DNA of 64,000 nucleotides. Origin: Glycomyces lechevalierae. GTDB lineage: Bacteria > Actinomycetota > Actinomycetes > Mycobacteriales > Micromonosporaceae. Location of the stretch: contig NZ_JAPZVQ010000004.1 of assembly GCF_027622945.1 (NCBI RefSeq), positions 1-64,000 on the forward strand, given 5' to 3'. The notes beneath the pieces were generated by a model that was given only the letters and a program-made list of their open reading frames with translations, ran no database searches and was not told the origin of the DNA. Positions 435-61,842 of the stretch are shown in pieces (position 1 is the stretch's first letter; the number at the start of each line of letters is the position of its first letter). A program made the translations under genes and the position numbers.

Positions 435-549
435 TCGTAGAGCTTCGCCCCGCGAACTGACACGGGCCTGTCACGCCGCTGTCGCGGCTACGGCGGCGCA
501 TGACAGCGCGCTTTGCAGGGGGTTTACCTCCCGCGTGTAGGTTGCCTGG

Positions 550-1449
550 ATGACCGACTTGCAGTTGAGCGACATCGAGATTGACGAAGCCTTCGTGCGG
601 GCGATGCTGCGCGAGCGGCATCCCGATCTGGCTGGGCTGCCTCTTCGGGAGGTCGAGGGTGGTTGGGACAACAAGATGTGGCGGCTCGGCGACGACCTGG
701 CCGTCCGCATCCCGCGCACACCGCGCGGGCCGGACCTGCTCGACCAGGAGTACCGGTGGCTGCCGGACATCGCGGCGCGGCTGCCGCTTCCTGTATCTGC
801 ACCGGTCAGGTTCGGTGCGCCGACTGCGGCGTTCCCCGCGACCTGGCTCGTGACCACTTGGGTCGCAGGCGAACCGATCGACCGCAGGCCGCTCGAACGC
901 GGGCCCGAATCGGCGGCGGCGCTGGCGGGTTTCCTTGCGGCCCTGCACGAGGAGGCGCCCGCGGACGCGCCGATCAACCCGCACCGGAGCCTGCCGCTGC
1001 CCGATCATGCGGCTGATGTGGAGCGGGGGATCGAGGCTTGGTCGACGGCGGGGAACGCCGCGGCGATGCGCGAGATCTGGGCCGACGCGCTTGCTGCAGA
1101 TTCATGGAAGCGTGGTCCTGTGTGGATTCACGGTGACTTGCATCCGGCGAATGCGGTTGGGGCTGAGGGTGTCTTGACAGGTGTCATCGACTTCGGTGAG
1201 CTGTGCGCGGGCGACCCGGCGGCCGATCTGTGCGCCGCTTGGATGCTGCTTCCTGAGGGCGCGGCTGAGTTGTGCCTTGATGCTTATCCCGACGCCGATG
1301 AGTCGACCGTGCTGCGGGCTCGAGGGTGGGCGCTGATGCGGGCGTTTGGCTTGCTGCAGGTCGGCTACGCGGGGGAGCAGGGCTGGGCCGGCGGCAAGGT
1401 GACCTGGAAGGCGGCGGGCGAGGCGACGTTGGCGCGCTTGCTCGCGTAG
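550..1449 (+). CDS. APH-family phosphotransferase (aminoglycoside/macrolide phosphotransferase fold)
   Basis: This 299-aa protein has the APH kinase hallmarks: a catalytic loop HGDLHPAN at residues 194-201 (Asp196 as base, Asn201 for metal) and the metal-binding IDFGE at 213-217, followed by a GDPAADL helix. The beta-3 segment reads AVRIPR, with Arg where classical kinases have Lys, as in many members of this family. The family phosphorylates antibiotics, sugars, choline or other small molecules. The substrate cannot be told from sequence, and nothing adjacent marks it as a resistance gene. It stands alone. Confidence 0.85.
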   Translation: MTDLQLSDIEIDEAFVRAMLRERHPDLAGLPLREVEGGWDNKMWRLGDDLAVRIPRTPRGPDLLDQEYRWLPDIAARLPLPVSAPVRFGAPTAAFPATWLVTTWVAGEPIDRRPLERGPESAAALAGFLAALHEEAPADAPINPHRSLPLPDHAADVERGIEAWSTAGNAAAMREIWADALAADSWKRGPVWIHGDLHPANAVGAEGVLTGVIDFGELCAGDPAADLCAAWMLLPEGAAELCLDAYPDADESTVLRARGWALMRAFGLLQVGYAGEQGWAGGKVTWKAAGEATLARLLA

Positions 1450-1530
1450 CGGCAATGCCTTTCGTGGCGGCAATGCGGCTCGGTCTCCTGGGGCGTCGCG
1501 GACTTTGCGGCCGCGGATTGCTTGCGCTCA

Positions 1531-1954
1531 AGGCGGGCAGCGACGAAGAGGTGGATTCGGGGCGGGGTTCGATTCGGGGTGGCGGGTCTGATGGGGGCGG
1601 CGGACGATGCTCTTGAGGTGTCTTTTCCCTTGGGGCGCAGGTGGGTCGGGCCGAACATGAATGTCTTCTCGCCCTGTGGGTGATGACAGTGGGGTGTGGT
1701 GCGAGGGATGATTGATGTACGCACAGGGATACGGAAAACGTACAGGTGGCGAGTAGGTGCAAGCAGACTACGCCAAGCCTCTGGCCGAAACCCAAACCGG
1801 ACGAGTTTCCGAGATCAGCGCCTTGACGAAGCGGTGGTTTCAGTCCCAGTGCTATCGGGTTCCACAGCGGACCACGGCCCGTATCGGGGGCGTGCTGGGT
1901 GGGAGATCGTTGGTCGGGATCACCTCGGCCGCGGCAGTGCTCTGAACGAGGCAC
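1531..1954 (+). repeat. Dispersed direct repeat, copy 1 (partner at 60769-61212)
   Basis: A block starting AGGCGGGC and ending GAACGAGGCAC is shared, with drift, with 60769-61212 in the same orientation. Similarity is patchy over the first 140 bases (conserved islands around GCGACGAAGAGGTG and TCCCTTGGGG), perfect over 1696-1798 (103 bases identical to 60947-61049), and then diverges while hairpins are kept. The core is annotated separately as a candidate RNA. Bases 1450-1530 and 1955-2118 hold no gene I can support. Confidence 0.85.
1672..1935 (+). ncRNA. Candidate structured RNA, copy 1
   Basis: This is the conserved core of the repeat. Hairpins seen: GTGCG 1699-1703 with CGCAC 1720-1724; TGGC-GA-GTAG 1747-1756 with CTACGCCA 1768-1775; GAGATCAGCG 1811-1820 with CGGTGGTTTC 1832-1841 (two G-U pairs, one G-G mismatch); CCCG 1878-1881 with CGGG 1885-1888; GGTCG 1912-1916 with CGGCC 1926-1930. 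In copy 2 the last three stems have different bases but still pair, including a C-G to U-A double change. The G-U pairs work only on this strand, which fixes the orientation. The next gene downstream is on the other strand, so a cis-regulatory role is unlikely. Short open frames exist across it but are not preserved by the substitutions. The family is not one I recognise. Confidence 0.6.
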
Positions 1955-2118
1955 GCTTGTAAGACCGCCAGCATGAACGGTGATGCCGGCCGGGCAATAG
2001 AGGACCCGGCCTACCCATCACCTGCGTGCACGGCAACACCAGTCGCGTGCTCGCGTGACCGTGATGCGCGCGGGAAGCACCATCCTGGCCGGTTCACTAG
2101 GGTGACCTCCGGGAAGCT

Positions 2119-2230
2119 CGACCCCGCCCATGGACTCATGGCGCGCGGGAGACCACGACCCCGCTCATGGACTTATGGCCCGGGGAACTACGACCCCGCC
2201 CATGGACTCATGATGCGCGGGAGACCACGA
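2119..2230. repeat. Three tandem copies of a ~36-37-bp unit
   Basis: Units begin with CGACCCCGC at 2119, 2156 and 2191, with a truncated fourth at 2228 (spacings 37, 35 and 37). Each contains CATGGACT(C/T)ATG followed by a G-rich stretch; the first and third are nearly identical. There are no unique spacers, so this is not a CRISPR array. It lies in the convergent gap between copy 1 of the RNA candidate and the sigma-factor gene. The surrounding bases 1955-2405 contain no gene I can support. Confidence 0.85.
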
Positions 2231-2405
2231 CCGCAGTCCTGTAGCTGCCGTGCCCATCAGAGGGAATTCCTCCACGGGCGGCACACGGCGGGTCGAGAGA
2301 CTGCGTGGACAGGGCAACAGGTCTGCGCCCGGCGGTGAAACGACACCGCAGGCTGCACTGATCGCGGAGCCGCAGAGACTGGGAAAGGAGGGTTTCCGAT
2401 ATGGC

Positions 2406-3341
2406 TTACCAGGATGCGATGATCGGGTCGCGGTGTTCGCCGCGGCGCCACTGCTCCGTGACGCGGCCGAGCCGGGCCCGGTCGGCGATGCTGTGGAGGG
2501 TGGCGATCTTGTCGCCGCTGGGGTCCAGGACCAGAATGCCGGCCACACTGTCCCCGAGCACGGCGATCATCGCCGGGGCGCCGTTGACGATCCCGGCGTG
2601 GATCGAGGGGCTGCCGCCCGCGAACTTCCGCTTGGCCGGGGTCGGCTTGAACCCCACCCGAATGATGGCGGCGATGCGCGCGGGGGCCGATTCGAGCCAG
2701 AATCTGCCCATGAACCCCGCGCCGTCGGACACGGCTGTCGCGTCATCGGTCAGCAAGGCCACCAGGCGCTCCGTCTCGCCTGAAGCCGCTGCGTCCACAA
2801 AGGCTTCCACGATGCGGCGGGCGGCCTCGCGGTCGACGTGCGCGGCGTTGCGCCCGACGGTGACGTGTCGCCGGGCTCGGAGCGCGTGCTGCTGACTCGC
2901 GGACTCGGTGATGTCGAGGATCCCCGCGATCTCGCTGTGGCTGTAAGCGAACGCCTCGCGGAGGATGTAGACGGCCCGCTCGGTCGGTGAGAGGCGTTCC
3001 AGGAGCATGAGCACCGCGATGCTCACCGATTCGCGCTGCTCGAAGGTCTCGGCGGGGCCGAGCATCGGGTCGCCGTCGAGTAGCGGCTCCGGCAGCCAAT
3101 CGCCGACCGCGCGCTCGCGCCGCGCCTGCGCCGATCGGAGCCGGTCGAGGGCCAGGTTGGTGACCACTTTGGTCAACCATGCTTCGGGCACCTCGATGCG
3201 GTCGCGGTCGGCGGCCTGCCAGCGCAGGAACGCGTCCTGCACGACGTCCTCGGCGTCGGCGGCCGAACCGAGTAGGCGGTACGCCAACGAGGCCAACCGG
3301 GCCCGGCCGGCCTCGAAGCGCTCCACGTTGGCGGTGTCCAT
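2406..3341 (-). CDS. ECF41-type RNA polymerase sigma factor (SigJ-like) with SnoaL-like C-terminal domain
   Basis: This 311-aa protein has sigma-70 region 2 at about residues 8-75 (RLLGSAADAEDVVQDAFLRW), the ECF41 linker signature DWLPEP at 81-86, and region 4 at about 110-165. A SnoaL/NTF2-like C-terminal extension of about 140 residues follows. In studied ECF41 factors this extension replaces a separate anti-sigma factor and tunes activity. ATG 3341 is chosen; a GTG at 3350 three codons upstream is possible. It starts 10 bases after the partner oxidoreductase, so the two are almost certainly one operon. ECF41 genes are typically paired with such an oxidoreductase, a carboxymuconolactone decarboxylase or an epimerase. 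Confidence 0.9.
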   Translation of the reverse strand: MDTANVERFEAGRARLASLAYRLLGSAADAEDVVQDAFLRWQAADRDRIEVPEAWLTKVVTNLALDRLRSAQARRERAVGDWLPEPLLDGDPMLGPAETFEQRESVSIAVLMLLERLSPTERAVYILREAFAYSHSEIAGILDITESASQQHALRARRHVTVGRNAAHVDREAARRIVEAFVDAAASGETERLVALLTDDATAVSDGAGFMGRFWLESAPARIAAIIRVGFKPTPAKRKFAGGSPSIHAGIVNGAPAMIAVLGDSVAGILVLDPSGDKIATLHSIADRARLGRVTEQWRRGEHRDPIIASW

Positions 3342-41664: not shown

Positions 41665-41826
41665 AAGGGGCGGCGGGGCGGGGGGGGGGGGGGGCCCCCG
41701 GGGGGGGGGGGGGGGGGGGGGGACCGGGGGGGGGGGGGCCCCCCGGGGGGGGCGCCGGGGCCCGGATTCCGCGCGGGGCCCCCGGGGTTCCCCGGGGGGC
41801 GGCCCCAGGGTGGGGTGGGGTGGAAG
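41665..41826. other. Extreme G-rich low-complexity tract, possible sequence artefact
   Basis: About 160 bases consist almost entirely of G runs (up to about 24 in a row) broken by short C runs such as CCCCCC. It sits exactly in the convergent gap where a GC-rich terminator hairpin would be expected. The true sequence may be a strong hairpin miscalled as G; otherwise it would be a massive G-quadruplex tract. No feature should be read from it. Confidence 0.8.
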
Positions 41827-60585: not shown

Positions 60586-60768
60586 GAGGCACTGGACCGG
60601 GGGTTTGAACGCCGTTCGCGGTCGCCTTCAGCCCGGCGCCGGGCGCGGCGAGGAGCGACGACTCGTCGAGCGGTTTCGGGCACCGCGACACGATCTCATG
60701 CCTTTTTTGGAGGGGGGTGTGGGAACGCCAGCGGATTGTCTGCGGAGTGTGTGCGTGGGTTGCGGTTC

Positions 60769-61212
60769 AGGCGGGCGGCGACGAAGAGGTGAGTTGATGG
60801 GTGCGGTCGCTGGCGGGGTGCGGGTTTGTTTTGGGGTGGGCGACACTCCCGGCCGCGGGGGCCGGTGTTGGCTGTTCCCTTGGGGTGCAGGGGGTTTGGG
60901 GCGAAACGTGAGGGTCTTGTACCCCTGTGGGTGATGACAGTGTGGGGTGGTGCGAGGGATGATTGATGTACGCACAGGGATACGGAAAACGTACAGGTGG
61001 CGAGTAGGTGCAAGCAGACTACGCCAAGCCTCTGGCCGAAACCCAAACCAGACGCTTTTCCGAAACCACTGCCTTGACGAAACAGTGGTTTCAGTCCCCT
61101 TGGTGCTATCGGGATCCGCAGCGGACCACGGCCTCTTCAAAGGAGGGCGTGCTGGGTGGGAGATCGCCGGTCGGGATCACCTCGACCGGAGGCAGTGTCC
61201 GGAACGAGGCAC
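60769..61212 (+). repeat. Dispersed direct repeat, copy 2 (partner at 1531-1954)
   Basis: Same orientation and same order of conserved islands as copy 1, offset by 59,251 bases over the identical 103-base core (60947-61049). Like copy 1 it lies after the stop of a rightward gene and before a leftward gene. Confidence 0.85.
60923..61192 (+). ncRNA. Candidate structured RNA, copy 2
   Basis: The 5' half is identical to copy 1, including both 5' hairpins. Three 3' hairpins are kept with changed bases: GAAACCACTG (61062-61071) with CAGTGGTTTC (61083-61092), now a perfect 10-bp stem around the conserved loop CCTTGACGAA; CCTCTT (61132-61137) with AGGAGG (61141-61146); and CCGGTCG (61167-61173) with CGACCGG (61183-61189) around the conserved loop GGATCACCT. 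Keeping loops while exchanging paired bases is what selection on RNA structure produces. No downstream sense gene exists within reach. Confidence 0.6.
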
Positions 61213-61842
61213 ACGAAGACGTCTGGTGTGACCGCGAGGCCTGCAAGGCCTGAGCGAGGTCTCTGAGGCCTGCACGGGAGACCAGACGAGCACGGACCCG
61301 CCCACCAGCCAGGCCCGCGCACCCCGAACACACAGGCATGGCCTGTCCGACCGACATCTCCACGCGCGAGCGTGCTCGGTCAGACCGCTGCATCGCCACG
61401 ACGCCGGCATCGTCTGGGCTGCGGCGATGCGCTGAGGAGGTAAGGGCCTCCAAGACAGGCGCTCGCTCGGTAAGGACGGGAGTGTGCCCGGACTGATGTG
61501 GCAGGCCAGGAATCTGGCCGGGTTGCCGCAGAAGCAGAAGCAGAAGCAGAAGCAGAAGCAGAAGCAGACGGCGGTGTGTCTGGGTTGGAGTTAGTAAGGC
61601 CGGGAAGTGGAAAGGTGCTTCCCGGGTGAGGCGCCAGACGCAAGATCGAGAGCGAAGCTGAGGAAGGAGGCGGCAGGACATGACGACGCTCGACCCTGGG
61701 GTGTGCGAGCCGCACCTGTGGCGCTCTGGCGTTGCCCGCTCGATAGCGGAACCGAGCCTTCGGGCCCCGGTGGCGGGGCGGCGGAGCTTCTATGCCTGCT
61801 TGTTGCTGATCGGGTGACGGCTGGCTGTGGAGCCTTGTGCGG
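61213..61842. other. Gene-free stretch after RNA copy 2
   Basis: About 630 bases without a convincing coding frame on either strand. It contains the hexanucleotide repeat at 61528-61567 and otherwise ordinary GC-rich sequence. Confidence 0.5.
61528..61567. repeat. Hexanucleotide microsatellite (GCAGAA)n
   Basis: About 6.7 uninterrupted copies of GCAGAA. It lies outside any supported gene. Such tracts change length by slippage and can vary between strains. Confidence 0.9.

Follow-up and report, generated by a model that had tools for sequence, protein, structure and literature searches.

A dispersed Glycomyces element that probably carries a folded noncoding RNA and shares its ends and leader with DUF222-HNH repeats

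Two stretches of the window (the 64,000 nt of Glycomyces lechevalierae DNA analysed here) are probably copies of a non-autonomous mobile element of Glycomyces, whose cargo would be a folded noncoding RNA of ~260 nt and whose mobilization would occur in trans via ends shared with another repeat class; a probability of roughly 0.6 is given to this reading. The element is dispersed, has its ends and leader in common with DUF222-HNH repeats, lies between convergent genes in excess of background, keeps its fold through compensatory changes, and is present in some species and absent from others at the same site. Because the ends and leader are those of the DUF222-HNH element as well, the RNA is more likely to be the cargo of a mobile element than a host gene. 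A sister element that agrees with them in ends and leader but has a highly structured RNA as its cargo provides a concrete handle on the DUF222-HNH repeats, a little-understood family that thereby gains a possible RNA partner; the common ends predict the recognition target of the DUF222-HNH protein, and a transcript, perhaps in the form of a ribonucleoprotein, would be expected from the RNA. It would also exemplify a noncoding mobile element with an RNA on which selection seems to act.

The initial annotation had described the stretches at 1672-1935 (copy 1) and 60923-61192 (copy 2) as a duplicated structured-RNA candidate. The resemblance is indeed more than chance would give, but the element is present in 20 copies in its own genome and not in two, and the limits first proposed, although real, fall short of the conserved unit, which extends from ~1521 (copy 1) or 60758 (copy 2) to beyond 1960 or 61218, with a tail that runs to ~2169, perhaps 2410, in copy 1 and to ~61767 in copy 2 (Table 1). 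The longest run of identity between the two copies is, as had been reported, exactly 103 bases (1696-1798 / 60947-61049), after which the sequences diverge and the hairpins are kept. When the pairs were checked by eye, the base changes that had been named for the hairpin at 1811-1841 (GAGATCAGCGC-CTTGACGAA-GCGGTGGTTTC) relative to 61062-61092 (GAAACCACTGC-CTTGACGAA-ACAGTGGTTTC) were all present, as was the change in the GGTCGGGATCACCTCGGCC / CCGGTCGGGATCACCTCGACCGG stem (1912-1930 / 61167-61189), the loop of which is unaltered. The statement that no sense gene lies downstream is true of ordinary genes for either copy, but copy 2 has a Shine-Dalgarno-like sequence and an ATG, both of which also occur in copies L011, L015, L016 and L019. 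As an example of the tail that these copies have in common, positions 421-764 of L011 align with positions 486-845 of copy 2, numbered from the element start. The 6-nt tandem repeats AGCACG, GACATG and GCAGAA are found near the Shine-Dalgarno-like sequence and ATG, 3' of the RNA core, and vary by copy (L068, L073, L079 and other copies in genome G005); with a unit of 6 nt, the frame would stay open while the repeat number changes. On the 3' side of copy 1, the stretch at 2180-2410 extends as far as the 3' end of the gene on the opposite strand, and so the element may occupy the gap entirely.

Table 1. Features of the two element copies in the window, with the evidence for each
Feature	Coordinates	Strand	Basis or remark
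5' terminal motif, copy 1	1521..1560	+	around GCTCAAGGCGGGCAGCGACGAAGAGGTGG (1526-1554); HMM of 73 copies
Conserved leader, copy 1 (approximate limits)	1621..1739	+	alignment and leader HMM; homologous to leader of DUF222-HNH genes
Predicted structured RNA core, copy 1	1711..1960	+	model R1, 236.5 bits; closing helix and hairpins 1811-1841, 1912-1930
Less conserved 3' tail, copy 1	1961..2169	+	common to other copies, e.g. L018, L020 (pairwise extents, alignment)
37-nt tandem repeat, 3.1 copies, copy 1 tail	2119..2232	+	uncertain whether part of the element
Stretch like tail of copy L018	2180..2410	+	73 % over 237 aligned columns
5' terminal motif, copy 2	60758..60797	+	motif HMM, E 1.8e-9
Conserved leader, copy 2 (approximate limits)	60872..60990	+	alignment and leader HMM
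Predicted structured RNA core, copy 2	60962..61218	+	model R1, 245.5 bits; hairpins 61062-61092, 61167-61189 inside
3' tail, copy 2	61219..61767	+	parts common to L011, L015, L016, L019
6-nt tandem repeat GCAGAA, 6.8 copies, copy 2 tail	61528..61568	+	copies in another genome have other 6-nt repeats
Short frame of 45 codons (MTTLDPGVCEPHL...) with Shine-Dalgarno-like sequence, possibly vestigial	61680..61817	+	

The link to the DUF222-HNH repeats came from the ends of the element. A motif like GGTTCAGGCGGGCAGCGACGAAGAGG was found upstream of 73 of the 100 RNA copies with enough upstream sequence (and not in the other 27), and in the longer copies its reverse complement recurs at the 3' side with a period of ~76 nt; these 3' arrays are absent from many, shorter, RNA copies. 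A search of the own genome with the end motif yielded 61 places, versus 3 for a backward control, and led to other repeats (L085-L097) that have the same inverted arrays around one gene, the product of which matches the Pfam families DUF222 (E 8.7e-10) and HNH (6.9e-6). This DUF222 plus HNH make-up is that of the 13E12/REP13E12 family. Since the motif itself had led to these 13 HNH loci, a further 20 (L186-L205) were taken by protein similarity as an independent test, and an HMM built from the 5' motifs of 73 RNA elements was run on all 33. Among the independent 20, 18 have the motif ahead of the gene on the + strand and 15 have it downstream on the - strand; for all HNH loci together, the upstream motif is present in 26 of the 28 that hold the 5' end of the gene and the downstream motif in 28 of 33. 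Within the 64-kb window, the only hits of the motif HMM at E <= 0.05 are the two RNA elements, at 1521 and 60758.

The leader, too, is held in common. An HMM of 100 RNA leaders matches 20 of the 28 HNH loci that include the gene 5' end at E <= 1, with 17 below 0.01 and the best at 5e-10, and gives no match in the other 8; 13 of the independent 20 match at E <= 1, 10 of them below 0.01. Every such match is on the + strand and directly upstream of the gene, and the common leader region takes in the stretch from which the 5' strands of the RNA's outer helices would be formed. In 14 of 29 HNH loci (L085-L088, L090, L095, L096, L186-L188 and L190-L193), the gene is preceded, ~50-115 nt ahead of the aligned start of the DUF222-HNH protein, by a perfect inverted repeat (TGATGACA-N14-TGTCATCA), possibly an operator or protein-binding site; the RNA leaders keep only its left arm. 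In locus L086 (1297-1454 and 2193-2418), the ~76-nt repeats also form a second array beyond the HNH element, with another open frame in between, and thus such arrays may exist apart from both element classes.

The further homologues that the initial annotation had suggested looking for, in the host genome and in other actinomycetes, were found in both the own genome and other Glycomyces. With 1672-1935 as query, the own genome (5.62 Mb, 33 contigs) gave 20 matches with identities of 73-100 %, the weakest at E 2.9e-22, and an alignment of the 20 copies is conserved from up to ~165 nt upstream of 1672 and, depending on the pair, for ~280 to 1,000 nt past that position. Among 41 genomes searched, 18 matched at E <= 0.001, including 17 of 22 from the same genus (own genome included), although the match in G007 is weak and covers only 37 nt and the sole match in another genus covers 24 nt (G037); five of the 22 Glycomyces genomes had no match to the element, with 18 candidates scored per genome. 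A degenerate core pattern recovered 78 stretches from genome contigs, all of them from Glycomyces (11 named species and Glycomyces sp. YM15). Of 61 family genomes searched with covariance model R1, 32 candidates being scored per genome, 3 have the RNA, each of them from the genus of the window; the model detected it, across the phylum and with strict filters, in 1 of 296 genomes, namely the own genome, with 6 candidates scored per genome. Because only some candidates were scored in each genome, these counts are lower bounds and weak relatives may be missed. Searches of phages, plasmids and viral contigs for the element gave no match, and on this showing the RNA element appears so far in one genus, Glycomyces.

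As for where the element sits, convergent genes flank 38 of the 80 RNA copies for which both neighbours were called, as opposed to 69 of 470 background gene pairs, a set in which overlapping loci were counted more than once. The HNH elements exhibit a similar site preference (15 of 26 with convergent neighbours). The gene calls behind these counts were made with a simple codon score, by which some genes were missed, such as the APH gene that precedes copy 1 and the frame that follows L078. A strong orientation rule, by which the next gene was on the opposite strand for 19 of the 20 own copies, was weakened to 65 versus 17 on 101 copies, and the orientation bias is mostly a preference for convergent pairs. 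That preference may reflect selection against harmful insertions rather than targeting.

Comparison of orthologous sites revealed both presence and absence. Copy L078 of G005 lies between two convergent frames, where the stretch left over by homology is 1,888 nt long, compared with 7 nt in the own genome (G000), in which both frames end with stop codons 1 nt apart; G014 and G002, which are without the element at this site, are also without a further stretch of ~2 kb. At the site of L068, the own genome has ~180 nt versus ~1,850, an intervening piece of 71 nt being alignable as well, and at the site of copy 1, G005 is without the equivalent of window positions 487-2433, a phosphotransferase-family (APH) gene included, and has ~68 nt instead. 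Gain and loss cannot be told apart from the sequence of these absent sites; no target-site duplication was found at those compared, where the exact outer boundary was not definable. Copies L024, L063 and L064 occupy a position between the same genes in three species, and this insertion is old and useful for dating.

The retention of L024, L063 and L064 is one of several facts that would also suit a host regulatory RNA, e.g. an sRNA that acts on mRNAs or an RNA that binds a protein, that has gone multi-copy, with its mobility incidental and its copies kept by the host; the others are the maintenance of the helices over many Glycomyces species and the very high conservation of GGTGCAAGCAGACT and CAAGCCTCTGGCC, in copies that were picked by likeness to that stretch. 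Such a host function is nevertheless unlikely, in that the five genomes of the genus without a match imply that the element is dispensable, its copy number varies widely (G005 has 33 places that match the element, by a hand count that includes some at contig ends), and its ends belong to another repeat class. Moreover, among 41 loci and beyond the L024/L063/L064 set, no protein family recurs next to the copies in a constant position and orientation, the few neighbour families that are common to 3 to 8 of the 41 loci being differently placed.

The earlier proposal of a structured plus-strand RNA is borne out by covariation across 37 copies and by folding energy. Two alignments were used: A1, with 26 hand-picked copies, and A2, in which 96 core matches were reduced to 62 distinct ones and then to 37 below 93 % identity, leaving out copies with a 3' domain that did not fit two short patterns, among them copies of the Glycomyces sp. 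YM15 subfamily, e.g. L068. Covariation, which the initial annotation had proposed to seek in a larger alignment, is present in both. With the 59-pair model, 92.1 % of the pair cells in A2 are standard, and both-side changes are present in 24 of the 59 pairs (87 cells); not one of 500 shuffles came up to the observed value by any of five measures, and slid controls gave 34-45 % standard cells and 5-11 pairs with both-side changes, an excess that is partly expected since the structure was derived from A2 itself. In A1, both-side changes occur in 7 of 39 pairs and four of the five measures are above all 500 shuffles; the measure of 'further pair types' is unsupported there, as 161 of the 500 shuffles were as high. 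RNAalifold gave -98.1 for the plus strand, -86.4 for the minus strand and -75.8 (sd 6.6) for 30 column shuffles, with covariation terms near equal on the two strands (62.5 and 61.6). The two top column pairs by corrected mutual information, among those at least 85 % paired, are both in helices, i.e. 17-183 (GC 23, AU 12) and 26-107 (AU 27, GC 6, CG 2), and the 45 highest mutual-information pairs listed comprise 6 in the model and 39 outside it.

As modelled, the RNA core of ~260 nt has about 12 helices. The consensus closing helix pairs GGUA.GCAC.AGG with CCU..GUGC.UAUC and contains GGAA paired with UUCC, the near-invariant GGTGCAAGCAGACT..CAAGCCTCTGGCC (to which the copies were chosen for their likeness) and the variable hairpin described in the initial annotation; 3' of the closing helix come a hairpin of UCC.C with GUGGGA, then GGUCGGGAUCACCUCGACC, and then GUGCUC..GAGGCAC. 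GGATCACC is present in 36 of the 37 copies of A2. The apical loop GGATCACCT (1917-1925, 61174-61182 and other copies) is identical to the 3'-end sequence of 16S rRNA, which carries the anti-Shine-Dalgarno. For a candidate pseudoknot between GGUG and a CACC loop, the evidence points neither way, both sides being near-invariant. Folding of single sequences was set aside as evidence of structure, being uninformative alone (against shuffles, copy 1 shows no gain, z = -0.58, and copy 2 a modest one, z = -1.95), and the lowest-energy fold of copy 1 by itself differs from the consensus. That the RNA could not earlier be matched to a known family agrees with the Rfam 15 covariance models, which gave no match in the window at the gathering score, none at E <= 1 in six loci that contain RNA copies, and none in six HNH loci. 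The alignments therefore support a plus-strand structured RNA of ~260 nt with a predicted fold that is kept by compensatory changes, and that fold, with its covariation support, would lie outside all Rfam families.

Another reading, less probable than a host RNA, is that the stretches are a passive repeat, i.e. an old element whose copies are kept alike by recombination or gene conversion, with a functionless RNA and a fold that amounts to DNA hairpins. Copy L012 is the same as copy 2 over all 270 nt of the core and 92 % identical over 662 nt, as conversion would give, and the REP13E12 loci of M. tuberculosis are described in passages of a preprint as gene-conversion hotspots (PMC13061034). 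However, conversion alone does not make compensatory changes in 24 of 59 pairs, the model holds 217 G-U cells versus 34 A-C cells, a disparity that is partly built in, since RNA pairing rules guided the choice of fold, and folding is more favourable on the plus strand than on the minus.

The distribution of the nuclease bears upon a further possibility, i.e. that the DUF222-HNH nucleases work with the RNA in trans, as a guide, scaffold or cofactor, much as IscB or TnpB does with omega RNA. When the DUF222-HNH protein was used in tblastn, 13 of the 176 loci examined had matches, none of them with an RNA core. All 11 genomes with firm RNA matches, among those searched for the protein, have DUF222-HNH matches; however, the protein is also matched in four genomes without an RNA match, G001 (12 matches), G003 (11), G012 (2) and G015 (5), and hence the nuclease does not need the RNA. 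G007, with its weak 37-nt RNA match, has no nuclease match, and several genomes of other genera have 9 to 45 DUF222-HNH matches, i.e. the gene is multi-copy in actinobacteria. The common leader and ends, the leader including the 5' strands of the outer RNA helices, would suit such a partnership, but it is doubtful given the nuclease matches in genomes without RNA matches, the fact that the nuclease is never beside the RNA in the loci examined, the lack of a recognisable guide-like variable segment at a fixed place in a non-systematic look, and a best E of 0.4 in a sequence search against solved structures. It is improbable that DUF222-HNH proteins are RNA-dependent, with the Glycomyces RNA elements as free-standing partner-RNA genes and the nuclease-RNA system divided between two mobile elements whose ends are alike.

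Among known systems, the REP13E12/DUF222-HNH repeats (13E12 family) are alike in being multi-copy and dispersed, and their coding form in Glycomyces shares the terminal motif and leader with the RNA element, whereas the RNA element is without a DUF222-HNH gene and has as its cargo a putative folded RNA with, at most, a short frame. MITE-like elements such as RUP and BOX of pneumococcus resemble it in that no transposase was found, ends are shared with a coding element, and presence and absence are seen at orthologous sites; inverted terminal repeats are indeed common to the RNA element and the coding DUF222-HNH element. Unlike them, the RNA element has a long internal RNA with ~12 helices that evolves by compensatory change, target duplication was not seen, and its proposed partner is an HNH nuclease and no known transposase. 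HEARO and the omega RNA of IscB and TnpB similarly combine a structured RNA within a mobile element with a nuclease family, but here the RNA and nuclease are in separate elements, the protein family is another one and Rfam has no match; no neighbour family is fixed beside the 41 loci in a comparison of neighbours that was done without IscB/TnpB models. Group II introns are mobile structured RNAs, some without an open frame, and were suggested by the GTGCG start and the downstream Shine-Dalgarno sequence and ATG; this candidate was dropped, as there is no Rfam match (domain V) and conservation begins ~175 nt upstream of GUGCG. The neighbours of the RNA copies, compared without an RT model, include no common protein family.

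In print, REP13E12 is paired with an HNH endonuclease and DUF222 in passages of one paper (PMC10589994), and REP13E12 regions are said to be without a defined biological function in parts of a preprint (PMC13061034). According to sections of a survey of M. tuberculosis small RNAs, intergenic regions with REP13E12 were left out (PMC7029489), and so an RNA tied to such repeats would be missed there. Within the parts of the literature covered, works on DUF222-HNH, REP13E12 or 13E12 repeats name no RNA partner, and print may hold more; likewise, those on Glycomyces and noncoding RNA describe no RNA tied to such elements.

Under the preferred reading of a non-autonomous mobile element with RNA cargo, the common ends would be recognised, and the RNA elements moved in trans, by the DUF222-HNH protein or by the machinery responsible for its own movement; the movement of DNA by DUF222-HNH proteins is only a proposed role. 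The element would be transcribed from its own leader, and the fold of the RNA might be needed for movement, e.g. in a ribonucleoprotein that joins nuclease and element. Alternatively, the RNA might serve in the protection or timing of the element's own copying.

Two protein-based explanations were also considered and set aside. A cis-encoded partner protein was discounted, as no family recurs at a fixed place beside the 41 loci. An open frame behind the conservation was judged unlikely, since indels of many sizes separate the copies; similar minus-strand frames cover the element in 33 loci, as is expected of similar DNA. Elsewhere in the window, positions 41667-41752 are nearly pure G with few C and A, perhaps an assembly problem or a real G-run.
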